A stretch of 48,499 nucleotides of DNA from an uncultured Bacteroidia bacterium (GTDB lineage: Bacteria; Bacteroidota; Bacteroidia; JANWVE01), in assembly GCA_938028625.1 (NCBI GenBank), contig CALIZB010000013.1, positions 1 through 48,499 on the forward strand, given 5' to 3'. Below the pieces are notes generated by a model. The model made no database searches, was not told the DNA's origin, and worked only from the letters and a program-made list of their open reading frames with translations. This document shows, one piece after another, positions 5,669 to 33,915 of this stretch. Numbering within the stretch: position 1 is the stretch's first letter; every line of letters begins with the position of its first letter. Position numbers and translations under genes: made by a program.

Positions 5669-5676
5669 TAATTTTG
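5669..5676 (+). promoter_or_regulatory. -7 promoter element TAATTTTG of rpe
   Basis: TAnnTTTG match in the 21-base gap between the regulator gene and rpe, ending 4 bases before the ATG. rpe probably has its own leaderless start. Confidence 0.6.
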
Positions 5677-5680
5677 TATC

Positions 5681-6325
5681 ATGATAATTGCCCCTTCTAT
5701 TCTCTCTGCAGATTTTGCTAATTTAAGGCAAGATATAGCCATGCTAAATAATTCTGTTTGCGATTGGATACACTGTGATGTTATGGACGGTGTGTTTGTA
5801 CCTAATATTTCTTTCGGAATACCTGTTTTGCAGGCTATAAAAAAACATTCCCAAAAACCTCTTGATGTGCATTTAATGATAGTACAGCCTGAAAGATACC
5901 TTACCACATTCAGAGATGCAGGTGCAGATATTCTTACTGTACACCTTGAAGCAAGTACGCATTTACATAGAACCCTTTCTGAAATCAAAAATCTGGGTAT
6001 GAAGGCAGGAATTGCGCTTAATCCACATACAAGCGTAGAACAGTTGTATGATGTGCTTTATCTGACTGATGTAGTGTGCATGATGTCGGTTAACCCTGGA
6101 TTTGGCGGACAGAAATTCATTGAACATACCTACATGAAAGTCAGTAAACTGAAAGAAAAAATTATGCAGGAAAATACGTCTACGCTCATTGAAATTGACG
6201 GCGGAGTAAATTTACAAAATGCCTCTATCCTAAAAAATGCAGGTGCAGATGTACTTGTAGCAGGTAATTTTGTATTTACTGCACCTAATCCTATACAAAT
6301 TATTCAACAATTAAAAGAAGTATAA
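5681..6325 (+). CDS. rpe: Ribulose-phosphate 3-epimerase
   Basis: A 214-residue TIM-barrel enzyme interconverting ribulose 5-phosphate and xylulose 5-phosphate in the pentose phosphate pathway. Family signatures are complete: the start APSILSADF, DVMDGVFVPN (catalytic and metal-binding Asp), DVHLMI, MSVNPGFGGQKF (phosphate binding) and EIDGGV with the second catalytic Asp. The length is normal. A terminator-like hairpin follows at once and the next gene is convergent, so this ends a plus-strand run. Confidence 0.96.
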   Translation: MIIAPSILSADFANLRQDIAMLNNSVCDWIHCDVMDGVFVPNISFGIPVLQAIKKHSQKPLDVHLMIVQPERYLTTFRDAGADILTVHLEASTHLHRTLSEIKNLGMKAGIALNPHTSVEQLYDVLYLTDVVCMMSVNPGFGGQKFIEHTYMKVSKLKEKIMQENTSTLIEIDGGVNLQNASILKNAGADVLVAGNFVFTAPNPIQIIQQLKEV

Positions 6326-20755: not shown

Positions 20756-20786
20756 AATGCAGTGCTGTATGGTACTGCATTTTTTG
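20756..20786 (+). terminator. Rho-independent terminator after tonB
   Basis: A 10-bp stem (20756-20765 with 20772-20781, including one G-T pair) with a 6-base loop, followed by TTTT. Confidence 0.8.
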
Positions 20787-22946: not shown

Positions 22947-23425
22947 TTATTTAAGTTGTGTAATTTCTTCTTGTGATAAGTTGAGCGTTTCTATTATTTT
23001 TTCTATCACGGGCGGTCTTATAATAAACATCACAACTATAATGAAACCAGGTGCAATGTACAAAAATAGTTCATGGCTTGTAATAACAAAAAATGTGATA
23101 GGAATAAAAGAACACATATCCATAGGAGCTAATCTAACTATAAAAAAGTTCTATAAAGTGCTATTTTCTGCATAAGGGGCATAGTAGTTTTTAACTTGGA
23201 GTTAAAAACTTTGGGTAAAATTAAAATAGAGGTAATGAGTACAGATAAAAAGATTATGACCGCAATACTTACTAAAATCAAAACTATTTCTTCATCTTCA
23301 CTACTCTTTGCTTCTTGACTGAATGCCATGTAAAAAGAGATTATAGCTAATATAGGGGCAGATATCAATGTAAAATACATAATCTTAAGTTGTTTTACAT
23401 ACATCTCAATATCAAAATTTTCCAT
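22947..23425 (-). pseudogene. Four-helix Bacteroidota membrane protein, interrupted by a -1 frameshift
   Basis: From ATG 23425 the frame runs 95 codons to a TAG at 23138-23140. The protein plainly continues in the -1 frame to TAA 22947-22949, giving about 159 residues and four membrane helices. The reconstructed junction YRTF(L/F)IVRLAPMD and the tail FIIRPPVIEKIIETLNLSQE match a widespread Bacteroidota membrane family of unknown function, so the full-length form is ancestral. The break lies at TTTTTTA directly before TAG (minus strand; 23141-23147), the classical U UUU UUA slippery heptamer. It may be a one-base deletion in a T-run, a sequencing error, or programmed -1 frameshifting. The -7 box ends 4 bases before the ATG. 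Confidence 0.72.
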
Positions 23426-23429
23426 ATCA

Positions 23430-23437
23430 CAAAGATA
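23430..23437 (-). promoter_or_regulatory. -7 promoter element TATCTTTG (minus strand)
   Basis: Ends 4 bases before the ATG at 23425. The 15 bases TATCTTTGTGATATG are identical to those before the gene at 47746. Confidence 0.6.
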
Positions 23438-25671: not shown

Positions 25672-26580
25672 TTAACTTTGTGATTTGTGCTTTTCTACTA
25701 CTTCAATAAAAATATCATTTAAAGGCGTTTCTTGGGGAGAAAAATAAGTTAAACTCGTTCTCTGGGCAAGATATTGTAAAATTTCTTTATCATTTTTATT
25801 GAGATGTGATTTTATCAAAATATAATTTGGATATTTCTGAATAATTTCTATACCTTGTATACTTTGCAGTATGCTGTCCTCTTCTTCTATACGAATTTGA
25901 TACAAAGATTTTCTGAACTGTTTTTTTATTTCTTTTAATGTTCCATCTAGAACAACCTTACCCTGATGAATTAAGCAAATGCTATCGCAGATTTCCTCCA
26001 CCTGTTCCATACGATGAGTAGAAAAAATAATAGTAGCACCTTTTTTGTGCAGTTCAAAAATTTCATCTTTAATCAGATTAGCATTGATAGGGTCTAATCC
26101 TGAGAAAGGTTCATCAAGGATAAGCAGTTCAGGCTGGTGAGCAACAGTGGTAATAAACTGTAATTTTTGTTGTTGTCCTTTGGAAAGTTCATTAGATTTT
26201 TTGTTTAGCCACTCTTTTACTCCGAGTTTATCAATCCATACGGAGAGCATTTTATGGGCATCATTTTTGGAATACCCACGTAACTGCACAAAATACAAAA
26301 GTTGGTCATATACTTTCATTTTTTTGTACAGTCCACGTTCTTCGGGCATGTACCCAATACGATTAAGATGTTTGTGTGACAAAGGTTCTTCCCGATAAAA
26401 AATTTCTCCTGAGTCTGGTAAAGTAATTTGTGTAATCATGCGCAAAGTAGATGTTTTACCTGCACCGTTAGGTCCCAGCATACCATACACGCTGCCTTGC
26501 GGTATACTGAGGGATATATTGTTAACAGCTAAAAAATCGCCGTACTGTTTGGTAACATTTTTTAAAGATAGTATATTCAT
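25672..26580 (-). CDS. ABC transporter ATP-binding protein
   Basis: A 302-residue ATPase with Walker A GPNGAGKTST (about 38-47), Q-loop region, signature LSKGQQQKLQF (about 133-143), Walker B LLILDEPFSGLD and the switch His in STHRMEQ. The extra C-terminal domain of about 80 residues resembles the DUF4162 tail of NatA/drug-export ATPases. No permease gene adjoins it, so its membrane partner must be elsewhere. It heads a unit with the glycosyltransferase (4-base gap). Confidence 0.93.
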   Translation of the reverse strand: MNILSLKNVTKQYGDFLAVNNISLSIPQGSVYGMLGPNGAGKTSTLRMITQITLPDSGEIFYREEPLSHKHLNRIGYMPEERGLYKKMKVYDQLLYFVQLRGYSKNDAHKMLSVWIDKLGVKEWLNKKSNELSKGQQQKLQFITTVAHQPELLILDEPFSGLDPINANLIKDEIFELHKKGATIIFSTHRMEQVEEICDSICLIHQGKVVLDGTLKEIKKQFRKSLYQIRIEEEDSILQSIQGIEIIQKYPNYILIKSHLNKNDKEILQYLAQRTSLTYFSPQETPLNDIFIEVVEKHKSQS

Positions 26581-26588
26581 TAATGATG

Positions 26589-26596
26589 CAAATATA
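26589..26596 (-). promoter_or_regulatory. -7 promoter element TATATTTG of the ABC ATPase gene (minus strand)
   Basis: Ends 8 bases before the ATG at 26580. Confidence 0.55.
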
Positions 26597-26679: not shown

Positions 26680-26687
26680 TAATTTTG
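26680..26687 (+). promoter_or_regulatory. -7 promoter element TAATTTTG of a small transcription unit
   Basis: A perfect TAnnTTTG match in the 26581-26848 gap, 4 bases before an ATG at 26692 and about 70 bases before a strong terminator. Confidence 0.5.
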
Positions 26688-26691
26688 TAGC

Positions 26692-26781
26692 ATGAAACTA
26701 CCGAATAATTGTTCCAAAGTTTCAGAACTCTCACCCAATCATTGTTCTAGTACCCAACTCTATGATAAAATACTTTCATAG
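26692..26781 (+). other. Possible 29-aa leaderless small protein or small RNA
   Basis: Between the divergent ABC ATPase and large outer-membrane gene there is a self-contained unit: a -7 box, then 4 bases, then an ATG opening a 29-codon frame (MKLPNNCSKVSELSPNHCSS, then nine residues) whose TAG lies inside the terminator stem. The peptide has two Cys and is hydrophilic. The DNA also contains two imperfect copies of AATNATTGTTC (26704-26714 and 26727-26737). The transcript would be about 100 bases. It may be a small RNA in which the open frame is incidental; I cannot decide without comparison to relatives. Confidence 0.4.
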
Positions 26782-26792
26782 AGTTTTTTTGT
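26756..26792 (+). terminator. Rho-independent terminator of the small unit
   Basis: Arms AACTCTATGA (26756-26765) and TCATAGAGTT (26776-26785) form a perfect 10-bp stem with a 10-base loop, followed by a long T-rich tract. It lies upstream of the next gene's promoter, so it ends an independent transcript. Confidence 0.82.
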
Positions 26793-26812
26793 TTTTTTAA
26801 TCTTTTCTATGC

Positions 26813-26820
26813 TATATTTG
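26813..26820 (+). promoter_or_regulatory. -7 promoter element TATATTTG
   Basis: TAnnTTTG match 28 bases before the ATG at 26849. Confidence 0.55.
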
Positions 26821-26848: not shown

Positions 26849-29800
26849 ATGCGGTGCATACAAGGTTATTTTAGTGTATTTACAGTACTTTTTTTGTTAC
26901 TTAGTAAGGTTGCCATAACTCAAATTAATTTTTCTTACTCTAAAAATGCCGTTCAGCATCAGGAATTTGTATGGAAATATCTTAAAACCGATAATTTTTA
27001 TGTATATTTCACTCAAAAAAATGACAGTTTAGCACAGTTTGCTGCACTCGAAGCCGAAAAACATTATGGGTATCTGTACAAAATGATGGACTATTATCCT
27101 GAAACCAAAATTGCGCTTGTTATTTATGCTTCTGTTACAGATTTTCAGCAAAGCAATATACAGCCCCCGAATATCAAAAATCCCGAAGGCGGAATAACAG
27201 AAATGGTTTCTGCCAAATGTATAACCTATTTTGAAGGGAGTTATGTAAAATTTGCACAGCAAATCCGAAAAAATCTCTGCCTGACCTTTCTTAATGACAT
27301 GATGTACGGCGGTTCTCTTCCCAATACCATACAAAGTTCACTTTTTCTGAACATTCCCGCATGGTTTAATGAAGGGCTTGCAGAGTATTTAGCTGATGGC
27401 TGGAATGATGTATTTGCATATTATACTCGTGATGCTATAAGTACCCAAAAACTTCGTTCTTTTATGGATATACAAGGACAATACGCAGGTAAAATTGGAA
27501 GTAGTATATGGCATTTTATTGTACAGAAATACTCTCCTGACCGTATTGCAGATATTCTTTACATGGTGCGCAGTTCAAGAAATGTACTACATGGCATAGA
27601 ATACACACTCGGTACAGATATATCTGTTTTATTCAGTGAATACATTGCTTTTTATCAGAAAAAAAATGAAGACCATGCAAGAATTTTTGAGGACCCACAA
27701 AACTATACTTTCTTACAGGTTACAAATAACTTTGCCATATCTCCTGATGGTACACACCTTGCTTATACTACCAATCACAAAGGAATTATCAAGGTATGGA
27801 TAAAAAATCTGCAAACGCAAAAAAAACATTTAGTGGTGCAAAGCGGTATGCGTACTGATATAAATGAACTTAGCTTTTGGAATATTCCCTTAGCTTGGTC
27901 AAAAGATGGTAATAAATTAGCCATAGCCTATTCAGACAAAGGAAAAACCCGTTTAATGCTGTATGACAAAAATTCGCACACTTCAAAAACCATAAAAACA
28001 GGTGGTTTAAAGCAGATTTTAAGCATAGATTGGTCTTTGGACAATACTCTTTTGGCTTTGGCTGCTGTAAAAAATGCACAATCAGATATTTTTATATTAC
28101 CTGTTGGAGGCTCGCTTCGTCAGATAACGAATACAAAATATGATGATATAAATGTTTGTTTTGGTACAGATAATAATGAACTCTGGATATGCTCTAATAT
28201 GCCTGATATACAGGACGAGGAACGTCTGTATATGGGACTTACCGCACAGGAAAGCAATCCTAATTTTAATCTCTGGCAATATAACATTACCGAAGAGGGC
28301 AAAATAAAAAATGTTGCACCGCTTAACCGTATCATTAACCGTAGATATGACCAGGAACTGAACCCGAAAGTCTTGGACAACAAACTCTTTTTTACAACCA
28401 ATAAAAACGGTATTCAGAATGTACTATACATTCCTTTACGAGACCTAAATAATTCAAATGATACTTTGCAAATCAAACCAAAATACCTCACCAATCTGCC
28501 CTGTGATGTATTAAACTATGCTGTTACAAAAGATTTTACAAAACTGTATCTTGTTACATTGCAGGAAAACACTGCACGCTTAATGAGCAAAGAAATCAAT
28601 GAAAGCATGCAGCTTAACAGCCAGATACGCCCTACAGAAGAGAAAATACAGTATATCACTCAGACCCGTACTGAAATACAAAAAAACAAAGATCTTACAA
28701 GAGCTAGTACACCTGAAAAAATTTCAGATACTACTCAGAAGAAAAAACCTACTGTAAACTACAACCACTATGTTTTTGATTATCAAAAACAGGAATTTGT
28801 GCTTTCCAATAAACCTAAAAAACAGGATAAAAAAACACAGCAGACTGTTAAAATTATTGCTGAACAGAACCACAAAACGGTAAATATCTCACAAAGTCAG
28901 ATGTATATTGTTAGTATGAGTCCTGATGTAATAGGTACAGGTTTATGCACAGACCCTGTAAAAGGTATAGGTTTTCAATTGGTAGGGGGTATGACAGATA
29001 TTTTTAACAACTATAAAATTACCGCCGCCGCCCGTATGTATTTTGATTTCAGAAGCACAGATTATATAATTAAGTACTTGTATCAGCCTAAAAAATGGGA
29101 TTATCTTCTTGAATTTAACCGCAGAACAAGAGATTTCAGGGATAGAAATGACCTTAATGACCCATTTGTGCTTAAATACAAAACATATTCTATAAAGGCA
29201 ACAGCTATACGCCCATACAGTAGATTTCTAAAATGGGAAAATAGAGCAGAATATACATATATTAACCGTCAGAGTCTGGTAGAAATCCCAAAACCTGATG
29301 AAAGATGTAATATGTTAGGTGCAAACAGTAGTGTTATTTATGACAATACCAAAGTAAAAGGACTAAATATATTACAAGGTACACGTGCAGGAGCAGGTAT
29401 TAGTGCTTTTCATAGTATTTTTGATAAAGCATATAGTCTTGTAACTCTATCGGCTGAATTTAAGCAATATACTGTAATTTCAGGTGAATTTATATGGGCA
29501 ACTCGCGCGGCTACTCAATGGAGTATGGGCAATAATCCGCAGTTGTTTTATCTTGGGGGAGTGGATAATTATCTTAACAACCGCATTCAGAACCATGAAG
29601 GATTACGATACAGAAGTACAAACGTTCCTGATTTTTATTTTACAGATTTTGCTACCCCCGTACGCGGATTTATACGCGGCGCACGTACAGGTAAACGTTA
29701 TGTAGTATGGAACAATGAGTTAAGAACCCCATTACTTAAATATGTAAAGCGTAACACTATTCCTTCTGCGGTATGGTATAATTTACAATTAGCTATTTTT

Positions 29801-30055
29801 ACAGATATAGGTACAGCATGGAATAAAGGATTTCCTAATCGTAACAATGCAGAACTGAATACTTCATACTATGAACTAGGCAATGTATCTGCACAGGTAT
29901 TTAATCAGCGAAGTCCTTGGGTAATGGGATATGGTGCAGGGATAAGAACGGTTATTTTAGGGTACTTCTTAAAAATAGATGTAGCCTGGAGCATAGAAGA
30001 CGGATATTATGCACCAAAACCAATATGGGCATTCTCCATAGGAACGGACTTTTAA
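26849..30055 (+). CDS. Outer-membrane fusion protein: degenerate peptidase-MA domain, beta-propeller and Omp85-like barrel
   Basis: A 1068-residue exported protein (signal peptide about 1-24). Residues 45-250 match a peptidase-MA-like metalloprotease fold, with WFNEGLAEY (172-180) well conserved, but the HExxH position reads RKNLCLTF (140-147), so zinc ligands are missing. Residues about 285-600 hold propeller repeats (FAISPDGTHLAYTTNHKGII, IPLAWSKDGNKLAIAYSDKG). After a polar linker (about 600-690), the last 370 residues are beta-barrel-like: TPVRGFIRGARTG recalls the VRGY/F motif of Omp85 proteins, and GYGAGIRTVILGYFLKIDVA and the terminal Phe fit an outer-membrane barrel. Function is unknown; a scaffold or assembly role is inference. 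Confidence 0.78.
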   Translation: MRCIQGYFSVFTVLFLLLSKVAITQINFSYSKNAVQHQEFVWKYLKTDNFYVYFTQKNDSLAQFAALEAEKHYGYLYKMMDYYPETKIALVIYASVTDFQQSNIQPPNIKNPEGGITEMVSAKCITYFEGSYVKFAQQIRKNLCLTFLNDMMYGGSLPNTIQSSLFLNIPAWFNEGLAEYLADGWNDVFAYYTRDAISTQKLRSFMDIQGQYAGKIGSSIWHFIVQKYSPDRIADILYMVRSSRNVLHGIEYTLGTDISVLFSEYIAFYQKKNEDHARIFEDPQNYTFLQVTNNFAISPDGTHLAYTTNHKGIIKVWIKNLQTQKKHLVVQSGMRTDINELSFWNIPLAWSKDGNKLAIAYSDKGKTRLMLYDKNSHTSKTIKTGGLKQILSIDWSLDNTLLALAAVKNAQSDIFILPVGGSLRQITNTKYDDINVCFGTDNNELWICSNMPDIQDEERLYMGLTAQESNPNFNLWQYNITEEGKIKNVAPLNRIINRRYDQELNPKVLDNKLFFTTNKNGIQNVLYIPLRDLNNSNDTLQIKPKYLTNLPCDVLNYAVTKDFTKLYLVTLQENTARLMSKEINESMQLNSQIRPTEEKIQYITQTRTEIQKNKDLTRASTPEKISDTTQKKKPTVNYNHYVFDYQKQEFVLSNKPKKQDKKTQQTVKIIAEQNHKTVNISQSQMYIVSMSPDVIGTGLCTDPVKGIGFQLVGGMTDIFNNYKITAAARMYFDFRSTDYIIKYLYQPKKWDYLLEFNRRTRDFRDRNDLNDPFVLKYKTYSIKATAIRPYSRFLKWENRAEYTYINRQSLVEIPKPDERCNMLGANSSVIYDNTKVKGLNILQGTRAGAGISAFHSIFDKAYSLVTLSAEFKQYTVISGEFIWATRAATQWSMGNNPQLFYLGGVDNYLNNRIQNHEGLRYRSTNVPDFYFTDFATPVRGFIRGARTGKRYVVWNNELRTPLLKYVKRNTIPSAVWYNLQLAIFTDIGTAWNKGFPNRNNAELNTSYYELGNVSAQVFNQRSPWVMGYGAGIRTVILGYFLKIDVAWSIEDGYYAPKPIWAFSIGTDF

Positions 30056-30084: not shown

Positions 30085-32010
30085 TCACGTAATTACAATG
30101 CCTAATTCTTGTACAATATTACTCCGAATAAGTGTAAGATTTCTATGAATTTGCATATATGCCTCAATTTTTTTTATATCTTTATCAGGAGTGTTTTTAA
30201 GATTTTGCATATTTTGCTTAATGAGCATGTCTATGTTTTTCTTACGCAAGTACAGAATAGCATATTGCAAACTTTTGGGTAAATCACGGTCTATACTAAA
30301 ATCTAATCCTTCCCGTTCTAACCATTTTTCGCTATACTCGTCCTTGTATTTTTCTGCCAGGATTTCAAGAACTGTGTGAGCTATATTTTTATCTTCATGG
30401 TGTATCAGGGACTGAGGGTCTGCGGAATGATGCAGTTCATACTGTTTCATAAGATTTGTGTATATATAACGAAAAACGGGGTTTTTTATTTCCTCCTCAG
30501 CGTCTGTAATTTCTTCTGCCAGAATCTGAAAAACATATACGCCGAGTGTATCAATAAAAACATTTCCGTAGAGTACCAATAGCCGTAAAATTTCACGCTC
30601 CTGAATGTCTGAATGCGTATCAAAAACAGGGGTCTGCTGGTTTTGGATTTGACTACCCTGATTTTGTGTTCCTGCACTAGTATTTTTGTTTTGTTTCTGG
30701 ATTTCCCGTCTTTTTTCATTTATCAGCAACTGAAATTGCTGAAATAAACTGTCTTCTGAAATATTAGTTTTTTGGGCTATACGATATACATATTCCTGCT
30801 GTGTAATAGGATTGGGAATAAGAGCAATGCTATTGAGCATAGCTTCTTGAACTTGGCTTCTTTGATTAGGGTCATTACCTGCTTGTTGATATAAATAATC
30901 TAATTTGTGTAATATGGCATCTTCCTTATTGGATTGAATAAATTGCCCAACTTCTTCGGGTGTGTGCGCATGGACAAAAGAATCAGGGTCTTCGGTATCT
31001 GGTAGAGCAATAGTTTTTACTACCGCACTATATGGCAATAAAATATCTAATGTTTTGAGAAACGCATTTTTTCCTGCACTATCGCCGTCATAAAAAAGAG
31101 TTATGTTTTTGGTCTGTCGGACTAATAATTGTGCTTGTTCTTCGGTAAAAGCTGTACCACTACTGGCTATGACATTTTGCATTCCTGCTTGATGTAAAGA
31201 AATAACATCTAAATAGCCTTCGGTAAGAATAACTTCATCAGCTTTACGAATAGGTATACGCGCAAAATATAATCCGTAGAATATACTTCCTTTATGATAA
31301 ATTGCACTTTCGTTAGAATTGATGTATTTAGGTACATTTTTATCATTAGAGAGGGTTCTACCGCCAAAACCTGCTATCTTGCCACTCGGAGTATGAATGG
31401 GAAATATAATTCTACCTTTGAATGCGTCATAATACTGTTGGGTAGTTTCATTTTGTTTAACTAAACCTGTTTCTAAAAGATATTTGAGTTCATATTGTTT
31501 TTTAAGTGCTTGTTGTAAGAGTGTATTACCTTGTTCAGGTGCGTAGCCTAACTGAAATTTTTGTATAGTTTCAGTACTTAAACCTCTTTTGTACAAGTAT
31601 TCTAATGCTTTTTTACCCTCTTCGGTTTCCCACAGTTGTTGTGTAAAAAATTGTTGTGCAAACTGATTGATAATGTAAAGGCTTTCTGTTTCTGAATTAT
31701 CTTGAATATCTTCTTTTTCCCATGTAAAAGGAATATTGTATTTTTCCGCAAGAAATTTAAGGGCTTCCGTATAAGAAAATTTTTCATGTTCCATTAAAAA
31801 ATGAATAGCATCACCGCCTGCACCACAGCCAAAACACTTGTAAATTCCCATAGCGGGGTTTACATGAAAAGACGGTGTTCTTTCATTATGAAAGGGACAT
31901 AATCCTGTATATGTTCTACCGCGTTTTTTTAAGTGTACATACGAACCTACTATTTCTACTATATCTGCACTGTCTTTAATTTGTTGTATAATATTGTCAG
32001 GAATTCTCAT
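30085..32010 (-). CDS. dnaG: DNA primase
   Basis: A 641-residue primase that makes RNA primers at the replication fork. The N-terminal zinc-binding domain has CPFHNERTPSFHV and YKCFGCGAGGD (CHC2 type). The TOPRIM core has VILTEGYLDVISLHQAG (metal-binding Glu) and TLFYDGDSAGKNAFL (Asp pair). The C-terminal third is less conserved, includes a Gln/Asn-rich linker (about 440-470), and should bind the helicase. The length is normal. The -7 box ends 4 bases before the ATG. It follows parE on the same strand. Confidence 0.96.
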   Translation of the reverse strand: MRIPDNIIQQIKDSADIVEIVGSYVHLKKRGRTYTGLCPFHNERTPSFHVNPAMGIYKCFGCGAGGDAIHFLMEHEKFSYTEALKFLAEKYNIPFTWEKEDIQDNSETESLYIINQFAQQFFTQQLWETEEGKKALEYLYKRGLSTETIQKFQLGYAPEQGNTLLQQALKKQYELKYLLETGLVKQNETTQQYYDAFKGRIIFPIHTPSGKIAGFGGRTLSNDKNVPKYINSNESAIYHKGSIFYGLYFARIPIRKADEVILTEGYLDVISLHQAGMQNVIASSGTAFTEEQAQLLVRQTKNITLFYDGDSAGKNAFLKTLDILLPYSAVVKTIALPDTEDPDSFVHAHTPEEVGQFIQSNKEDAILHKLDYLYQQAGNDPNQRSQVQEAMLNSIALIPNPITQQEYVYRIAQKTNISEDSLFQQFQLLINEKRREIQKQNKNTSAGTQNQGSQIQNQQTPVFDTHSDIQEREILRLLVLYGNVFIDTLGVYVFQILAEEITDAEEEIKNPVFRYIYTNLMKQYELHHSADPQSLIHHEDKNIAHTVLEILAEKYKDEYSEKWLEREGLDFSIDRDLPKSLQYAILYLRKKNIDMLIKQNMQNLKNTPDKDIKKIEAYMQIHRNLTLIRSNIVQELGIVIT

Positions 32011-32014
32011 AATA

Positions 32015-32022
32015 CAAAGATA
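32015..32022 (-). promoter_or_regulatory. -7 promoter element TATCTTTG of dnaG (minus strand)
   Basis: Ends 4 bases before the dnaG ATG at 32010. Confidence 0.6.
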
Positions 32023-32043: not shown

Positions 32044-33903
32044 TTATTCAGTGGCAGGAATAAAGAAGTCATTTTTTTCTATTTTGAGATTTTGAATAAT
32101 AAACTCCTGTCTTTGTGGGGTATTTTTACCCATGTAGTATTCTAGTACTTTCTGAATAGGTACTTCGGGAGTGATGAGTACAGGAGAAAGTCGCATATCT
32201 TGACCTATAAATGCGCTAAACTCATCAGGCGAGATTTCACCTAATCCTTTGAAACGAGTAATTTCAGGTTTGCCACCAAGTTTTTGTATAGCTTTTTCTT
32301 TTTCGTTTTCTGAATAGCAATAGAATGTTTTTTTCTTATCTCTTACCCTGAAAAGTGGAGTTTCCAGAATGTAAAGATGCCCATTTTTAACCAAATCAGG
32401 GAAGAACTGTAAAAAGAAAGTAAGTATAAGCAAACGTATGTGCATGCCGTCAATATCGGCATCAGTAGCGATAACAATACGGTTGTATCGTAAATTTTCT
32501 AGTCCTTCTTCAATATCTAAAGCATGCTGAATAAGGTTAAACTCTTCATTTTCATAAACTACTTTTTTCTTCATTCCATAGCAATTAAGGGGTTTACCTC
32601 TTAAACTGAATACCGCTTGTGTTTCTACATCTCTGGCTTGGGTAAGCGAACCACTAGCAGAGTCGCCTTCTGTGATGAATAAAGTAGTTTCTAGTCTGCG
32701 TTCAGCTTTGGTATCGGTAAGGTGAATACGGCAGTCGCGGAGTTTTTTGTTATGTAGATTAGCACGTTTGGCACGCTGTTGAGCTAATTTTTTAATACCT
32801 GCCATATCTTTACGTTCTCTTTCAGATTGTAAGATTTTTTTTAGTAAAGCATCAGCGGTTTCGGGGTGTTTGTGTAAATAGTCATCTAATTCTTTTTTGA
32901 TAAAATTTTGCATCCATGAGCGGATAGTTTGTGCATTTTCATCAGGAGCAATATTTTGAGAACCTAATTTAGTTTTTGTTTGAGATTCAAATACAGGTTC
33001 TTGAATGCGTACACTGATAGCGGCAACAATAGAAGCGCGTATATCCGTAGCTTCAAAATCTTTTTTGTAAAATTCGCGTATAGTTTTGACGTATGCTTCC
33101 TTGAAGGCTTGCAGATGCGTTCCGCCCTGTGTAGTATTCTGCCCATTAACAAAAGAGTAGTACTCTTCACCATATTCGTTGTTGTGGGAAACCGCTATTT
33201 CTATATCTTCATTTTTAAGGTGAATGATGGGGTAGCATATTGTTTCTGAACTTGTTTTTTGGGTTAAAAGGTCTGCTAATCCTTTTTGAGAAACATAAGT
33301 ATTTTGGTTATATTCTAATACTAATCCTGCATTGAGATAGGCATAGTTCCAAATCATAGCAGTAACATACTCGGGCATATATGCAAAATTTTTGAATATA
33401 GTTTCATCAGGTATAAAATGAATATATGTGCCGTTAGGTTCATCTGTGGGAGCTATTTCATGTTCTTTGATAAGTTTTCCTCGTGAAAATTCTACGGTTT
33501 TTTGTTGTTTATCACGTATAGCGGTTACTTTGAAGTATTGAGAAAGAGCATTTACGGCTTTTGCACCTACTCCGTTTAATCCTACGGCTTTTTTGAAGGC
33601 TTCCGAGTCATATTTTGCCCCTGTATTGATTTTAGAAACACAATCTACAACTTTACCCAGTGGAATACCTCTACCAAAATCGCGCACTTTTACTTCATTT
33701 TCGGTTACGATAATCTGTATTTTTTTACCAAATCCCATAGTATATTCATCTATGGCGTTATCTATAATTTCTTTGAGTAAAATATAAATACCATCATCTT
33801 GGGAAGTGCCATCTCCAAGCTTGCCTATGTACATACCTGGACGTAGGCGTATATGTTCTACCCAATCTAATGATTTAATGTTATCTTCTGTATATTTTGC
33901 CAT
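32044..33903 (-). CDS. parE: DNA topoisomerase IV subunit B (type IIA topoisomerase ATPase subunit)
   Basis: A 619-residue subunit. The GHKL ATPase domain shows [25 protein letters not shown] and [14 protein letters not shown]. The TOPRIM domain has [27 protein letters not shown] and [15 protein letters not shown]. Its length and RGKPLNCYG segment favour ParE-type topoisomerase IV over GyrB. I start at ATG 33903 (MAKYTED), 4 bases after a perfect -7 box; five upstream codons overlap that promoter and are excluded. No parC is adjacent in the window. Confidence 0.92.
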
Positions 33904-33907
33904 GTTA

Positions 33908-33915
33908 CAAAGGTA
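33908..33915 (-). promoter_or_regulatory. -7 promoter element TACCTTTG of parE (minus strand)
   Basis: Ends 4 bases before the parE ATG at 33903. Confidence 0.6.

Follow-up and report, generated by a model that had tools for sequence, protein, structure and literature searches.

What does a promoter followed within about 100 nt by a terminator encode when the two stand alone between genes: a small protein, an RNA, or nothing? The question arises at one site in a window of 48,499 nt, on contig C13 of a draft genome (2.9 Mb) from an uncultured Bacteroidia bacterium (G000). The short unit (hereafter the micro-unit) occupies the + strand of a 268-bp gap between two divergent genes. An earlier note had described there a -7 box, a 4-nt gap, an ATG, 29 codons and a TAG set in a perfect 10-bp stem with a T tract, and each of these elements is present in the sequence as described. 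The features of the locus are as follows.

25672–26580, minus strand: upstream divergent gene for a DrrA-like ABC transporter ATPase
26589–26596, minus strand: -7 box TATATTTG of the ABC ATPase gene, identical in all three genomes of the genus compared
26680–26687, plus strand: -7 box TAATTTTG of the micro-unit, sigma-A type TAHHTTTG, aligned with TATTTTTG in sister genome G002
26692–26781, plus strand: 29-codon frame, from ATG (26692–26694) to TAG (26779–26781), probably not a protein gene
26692–26792, plus strand: predicted small RNA of about 100 nt, proposed from the promoter and terminator and the fold (z = -4.24)
26728–26740, plus strand: conserved block CTCTCACCCAATC preceding the terminator, a candidate seed, mostly unpaired in the predicted fold
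26756–26785, plus strand: terminator hairpin, 10 bp with a loop of 10, orthologous to hairpins in sister genomes G002 and G001
26784–26798, plus strand: terminator T tract, with the first two T paired in the stem
26813–26820, plus strand: -7 box TATATTTG of the outer-membrane gene, identical in all three genomes
26849–30055, plus strand: downstream outer-membrane gene encoding WD40/PD40-like propeller, Peptidase_MA_2-like and Omp85 domains

If the -7 box spans positions -12 to -5, as reported for Flavobacterium johnsoniae (PMC6847099) and F. psychrophilum (PMC9723704), the predicted +1 of the micro-unit is 26692, the A of the ATG. The terminator stem is Watson-Crick throughout (26756–26765 with 26776–26785), is followed by T5 G T7, and contains the TAG in its 3′ arm. 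Two imperfect copies of AATNATTGTTC (26704–26714 and 26737–26747), to which the earlier note had drawn attention, do exist; G002 lacks them, and they may have arisen by chance. The promoter-start stretch 26680–26700 (ATACTAATTTTGTAGCATGA) is almost identical to that of a 214-aa gene at 5681 (5669–5690, ATACTAATTTTGTATCATGA).

The micro-unit is more than a chance arrangement. The window has four stems of at least 10 bp with a T tract on its + strand and two on its - strand, whereas 10 Markov shuffles averaged 0.2 per strand; a simple hairpin scan with a loop limit of 8 omits the micro-unit hairpin, whose loop is 10. The RNA 26691–26800 (110 nt) has a predicted folding energy of -21.2 kcal/mol (z = -4.24), a value equalled by none of 200 shuffles.

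The start of the frame invites its reading as a small leaderless protein (29 aa, MKLPNNCSKV...). The gap between box and ATG is exactly 4 nt, and the claim that this is the spacing of real genes here holds: among the 10 sites of the form TANNTTTG-N4-ATG in the window, seven begin gene-sized frames (95–641 aa), two fall within genes, and the tenth belongs to the micro-unit. Genome-wide the motif is 4.7-fold enriched (356 sites vs 75 in a backwards control). Against a protein, the G002 sequence at +1 reads ACA rather than ATG, and a 26-nt stretch of the frame is missing there. In codon log-likelihood the frame scores -5.5 bits, close to the medians of random open frames (-5.8) and wrong-frame segments (-5.7) and far from that of real 28-codon segments (+5.9), of which 1.7% of 410 score as low. 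Its codon use thus falls in the noncoding range, unlike that of the genes of the same genome, and its length is expected by chance in 15% of cases, given an ATG. We rejected a small protein gene on the loss of frame and start in G002 together with the noncoding codon score, and consider this reading very improbable. Of the two products that the earlier note had proposed, a small protein or an RNA of about 100 bases, the protein falls on the missing ATG and frame in G002 and a codon score below 98% of real 28-codon segments; the RNA, with its own promoter and terminator, is the option supported. The micro-unit is probably an RNA gene rather than a protein gene.

We searched 40 genomes, including G000 itself, for relatives of the locus; only G001 and G002 belong to the same genus. 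The gene order of G002 is that of G000, and the flanking proteins of the two are 71–76% identical. In G002 (box TATTTTTG) as in G000, exactly 100 bp separate the box from the start codon of the ABC gene. Measured in 20-base steps, identity between the two genomes rises from 3–8/20 just before the box to 14/20 over it. Boxes at offsets equal within 2 bp occurred in both sister spacers in 0.045% of 20,000 Markov-simulated pairs, in a test devised after the match had been seen. Downstream, 11 of 13 aligned bases are the same in the block region (26721–26740), and the block itself is recognisable in all three genomes; 18 of 20 positions agree in the T-tract region (26781–26800).

The terminator hairpin has orthologues in G002 (L026:376–397) and G001 (L027:984–1008), with arms CTCTATGA/TCATAGAG in G000, CTCTACAAG/CTTGTAGAG in G002 and CTCTACGAAA/TTTCGTAGAG in G001. 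Five outer pairs are invariant. Two further pairs, present in all three genomes, have changed on both sides and still pair (T-A/C-G and G-C/A-T). A ninth pair is G-C in G002, A-T in G001 and absent from G000. For this comparison of pairs the register was chosen by hand, since automatic alignment shifted the G001 5′ arm by one base. These compensatory changes among three sequences support the hairpin without proving it. The predicted G002 transcript of ~77 nt (L026:336–412) folds with z = -2.30, and the G001 stretch L027:930–1022 with z = -3.65. With respect to the conservation in sister species on which the earlier note had staked its proposal, the promoter is thus retained in G002 and the hairpin in all three genomes, with compensatory changes, while the frame is lost in G002.

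The same comparison bears on whether the micro-unit could be the scar of a lost gene, its promoter and terminator left behind when the frame between them was deleted. We infer that the layout matches an ordinary gene that has lost its middle, as such a scar would. Both ends, however, have been retained by two species whose flanking proteins have diverged to the extent given above, and the apparently neutral DNA next to the promoter shows near-random identity, which makes a scar distinctly improbable.

A more serious alternative, and the main rival to a small RNA, is that the hairpin is an insulator terminator that shields the outer-membrane gene's promoter from stray upstream transcription, with the short RNA as a functionless by-product. 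Conservation is higher in hairpin and T tract than in the body, and both persist in G001 without the native promoter. The hairpin also lies 28 nt ahead of the next -7 box, like an ordinary tandem boundary elsewhere in the window (hairpin 20756–20781, box 20813). An insulator leaves unexplained why G000 and G002 have retained a promoter at one and the same position, as well as the conserved block ahead of the stem, and neither genome has an upstream sense gene that would need termination. We regard the insulator as unlikely, but a rival to be taken seriously.

G001 is the exception in the genus. It carries the same outer-membrane gene, but repeat DNA has taken the place of the promoter and of all else upstream of the hairpin region. 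On the ABC side a multi-copy element starts ~18 bp past the start codon (copies begin at query base 15–21 of L028:1044–2000); on the side of the outer-membrane gene, repeat copies reach L027:949 in one case and ~L027:850 in many, just short of the conserved block. Judged from these boundaries, the native promoter is gone or moved in G001, whereas hairpin, block and next promoter stay. A -7 box beside the G001 ABC gene (L028:1111) was considered as the displaced promoter and rejected, as it lies within an element with many G001 copies. Because repeat DNA removed the promoter, the putative RNA, if it exists, is probably dispensable in G001. It counts against a small RNA that promoter and terminator occur together in only two of the three genomes (G000 and G002), and that the body is poorly conserved, differing in length by 26 nt between them.

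The repeats are features in their own right. One of ~170–210 bp ending in GGGACACGCCC (L028:1801–1975, L027:640–850) has dozens of copies in G001 and in G002 and shorter, more diverged ones in G000, and it borders the rearrangement in G001. The multi-copy element L028:1062–1706, directly behind the G001 ABC promoter, has a transposase-like frame (by eye) and a TACTTTTG box of its own. Upstream of the outer-membrane gene, G001 differs from G000 and G002 in encoding a protein whose N-terminal part is kinase-like and which carries WD40 repeats (L034:1293–3647, family assigned by eye).

Beyond the genus, seven loci with distant orthologues of the outer-membrane gene (L009–L015, 25–31% identity) showed no hairpin-plus-box unit in the 660 bases around and before the match start, a result of little weight as the neighbourhoods differ. 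Within G000 the micro-unit matches only itself. The G002 unit returned only its orthologues and one 30-base T-rich, terminator-like stretch (G002:C18). The micro-unit query also matched G017:C26 (L002); a match in G001:C329 (L003) was rejected as a paralogue for its low-complexity look and for having no matching hairpin by eye.

Could the micro-unit promoter (P1, 26680) instead serve the outer-membrane gene? The earlier note had concluded that the micro-unit is not the leader of that gene, which has its own -7 box beyond the terminator, at 26813–26820. The box is there, 28 nt from its ATG, and this second promoter (P2) is conserved in all three genomes, in favour of that conclusion; set against it is the rival in which P1 drives the gene through a leaky or regulated terminator. 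G000 and G002 share strand and order (P1, terminator, P2, gene), in favour of read-through. The predicted folds that we inspected, short of a systematic search, contain no alternative antiterminator pairing, and P2 is kept in all three genomes while P1 is absent from G001. Read-through from P1 seems quite unlikely. A variant confined to G000, in a genus with many leaderless-type starts, would have a small RNA whose first base has become that of a leaderless AUG: ribosomes reaching the stop in the 3′ arm of the terminator could open the stem and let polymerase enter the outer-membrane gene, a translation-coupled antiterminator, or the RNA might combine small-RNA function with a micro-peptide. 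We give either version very little credence.

How box and hairpin are used elsewhere in the genome points towards RNA. A scan of G000 for hairpins with a T tract, covering the window and 20 further stretches (448,499 bases), found 64. For 42 of them the 3′ end of a sense gene is at most 150 nt away; another 11 fall within genes, and the remaining 11 belong to neither group. Five of the last 11 have a -7 box no more than 200 nt upstream, the micro-unit among them. Two are the genes for tRNA-Asn (L040:1905–1979) and tRNA-Cys (L044:7360–7431), both on the minus strand; the others look weak by eye, L041 having an 8-bp stem and L054 a box at a distance of 196 nt, where a neighbour starts. The layout can thus mark RNA genes in G000, in a small sample. 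Since two of the five boxed hairpins are tRNA genes, the micro-unit, as the third clear case, is read as an RNA gene too. Like these tRNA genes it consists of a box, a short noncoding body and a hairpin with a T tract, but it is no tRNA: ARAGORN found no cloverleaf and Rfam no match in it.

Weighing these observations, we favour, with some reserve, the view that the micro-unit is a free-standing intergenic gene for an sRNA of ~100 nt (77 nt in G002) whose conservation is narrow. Sigma-A RNA polymerase would start at or next to 26692, directed by the box at 26680, copy ~100 nt and halt near 26790, where hairpin and T tract lie. The product would be loosely folded in its 5′ part, with a C/U-rich stretch (CUCUCACCCAAUC) left unpaired and the terminator stem at its 3′ end, a build resembling that of the usual trans-acting base-pairing sRNA. 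Promoter motif, terminator, their conservation in the sister species and the absence of a coding signal are read directly from the DNA; that the RNA is transcribed, stable and active by base pairing we infer.

The micro-unit has what is expected of an sRNA gene, namely its own TAHHTTTG -7 box, an intrinsic 3′ terminator and a noncoding body. PMC10994844 defines sRNAs by a length of 30–500 nt, no overlap with genes and a normalised folding energy below -0.05; the predicted RNA, ~100 nt long, between genes and folding with -21.2 kcal/mol over 110 nt, falls within these limits. On the other side, Rfam covariance models gave no match at gathering score in the window or the sister loci, and a known RNA family was rejected after a permissive scan returned only eukaryotic snoRNA and miRNA models far below threshold.

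Such RNAs are familiar in the phylum. For Bacteroides thetaiotaomicron, 49 high-confidence intergenic sRNAs were reported in 2020 (PMC7366714) and 135 in 2024, among them the narrowly conserved MasB of roughly 100 nt (PMC10994844); GibS has 145 nt (PMC10994844, PMC7366714). As these sources describe them, B. thetaiotaomicron sRNAs are free-standing, with mostly sigma-A TAnnTTTG promoters, an intrinsic terminator and a loose body with an unpaired stretch, all of which the predicted RNA shares, along with the length and narrow conservation of MasB. Expression and targets of MasB and GibS are established, whereas the micro-unit RNA is predicted from sequence and is likened to them by layout; Rfam families gave no match. 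According to the same reports the GibS seed lies in the 5′ part, while the conserved block of the micro-unit stands just before the terminator. Rfp18, an independent sRNA of F. psychrophilum as described in PMC9723704, comes from the same phylum and has the same -7 box and a free-standing short transcript (predicted in our case); it is conserved widely in its genus and strongly folded, whereas the micro-unit is intact in only two of three genomes.

Sites complementary to the conserved block numbered 7 in G000 (1 self, 6 non-self) against 11 in the backwards control, no excess there, and 21 in G002 (1 self, 20 non-self) against 7. Joining the two sets by tblastn revealed no gene in common. If transcribed, the micro-unit would add a narrowly conserved sRNA in an uncultured Bacteroidia lineage, beside an Omp85-type outer-membrane gene; it would leave the general picture unchanged, as sRNAs of this kind are already well known. 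As a method, looking for a box and a terminator in an otherwise empty gap and checking them in sister genomes can sort RNA-gene candidates from chance frames.

The most interesting observation lies outside the micro-unit, in the abundance of leaderless-type starts. In G002 TANNTTTG-N4-ATG sites number 288 against 89 in the backwards control, beside the 356 against 75 of G000; three other members of the class show a far smaller excess (76/51, 96/54 and 82/36). If the flavobacterial box geometry holds, the genus would have a few hundred such starts, and it may use leaderless mRNAs much more than the Bacteroidota studied so far: 5.5% of mRNAs are given as leaderless for F. psychrophilum (PMC9723704), and those of F. 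johnsoniae are described as mostly leadered (PMC6847099). With a gap of 12 nt in place of 4, G000 has 145 sites against 90 in the control. Box-N4-ATG sites in the window lie at 5669, 6831, 20813 and 47734 on the plus strand and at 23423–23437, 32008–32022 and 33901–33915 on the minus strand.
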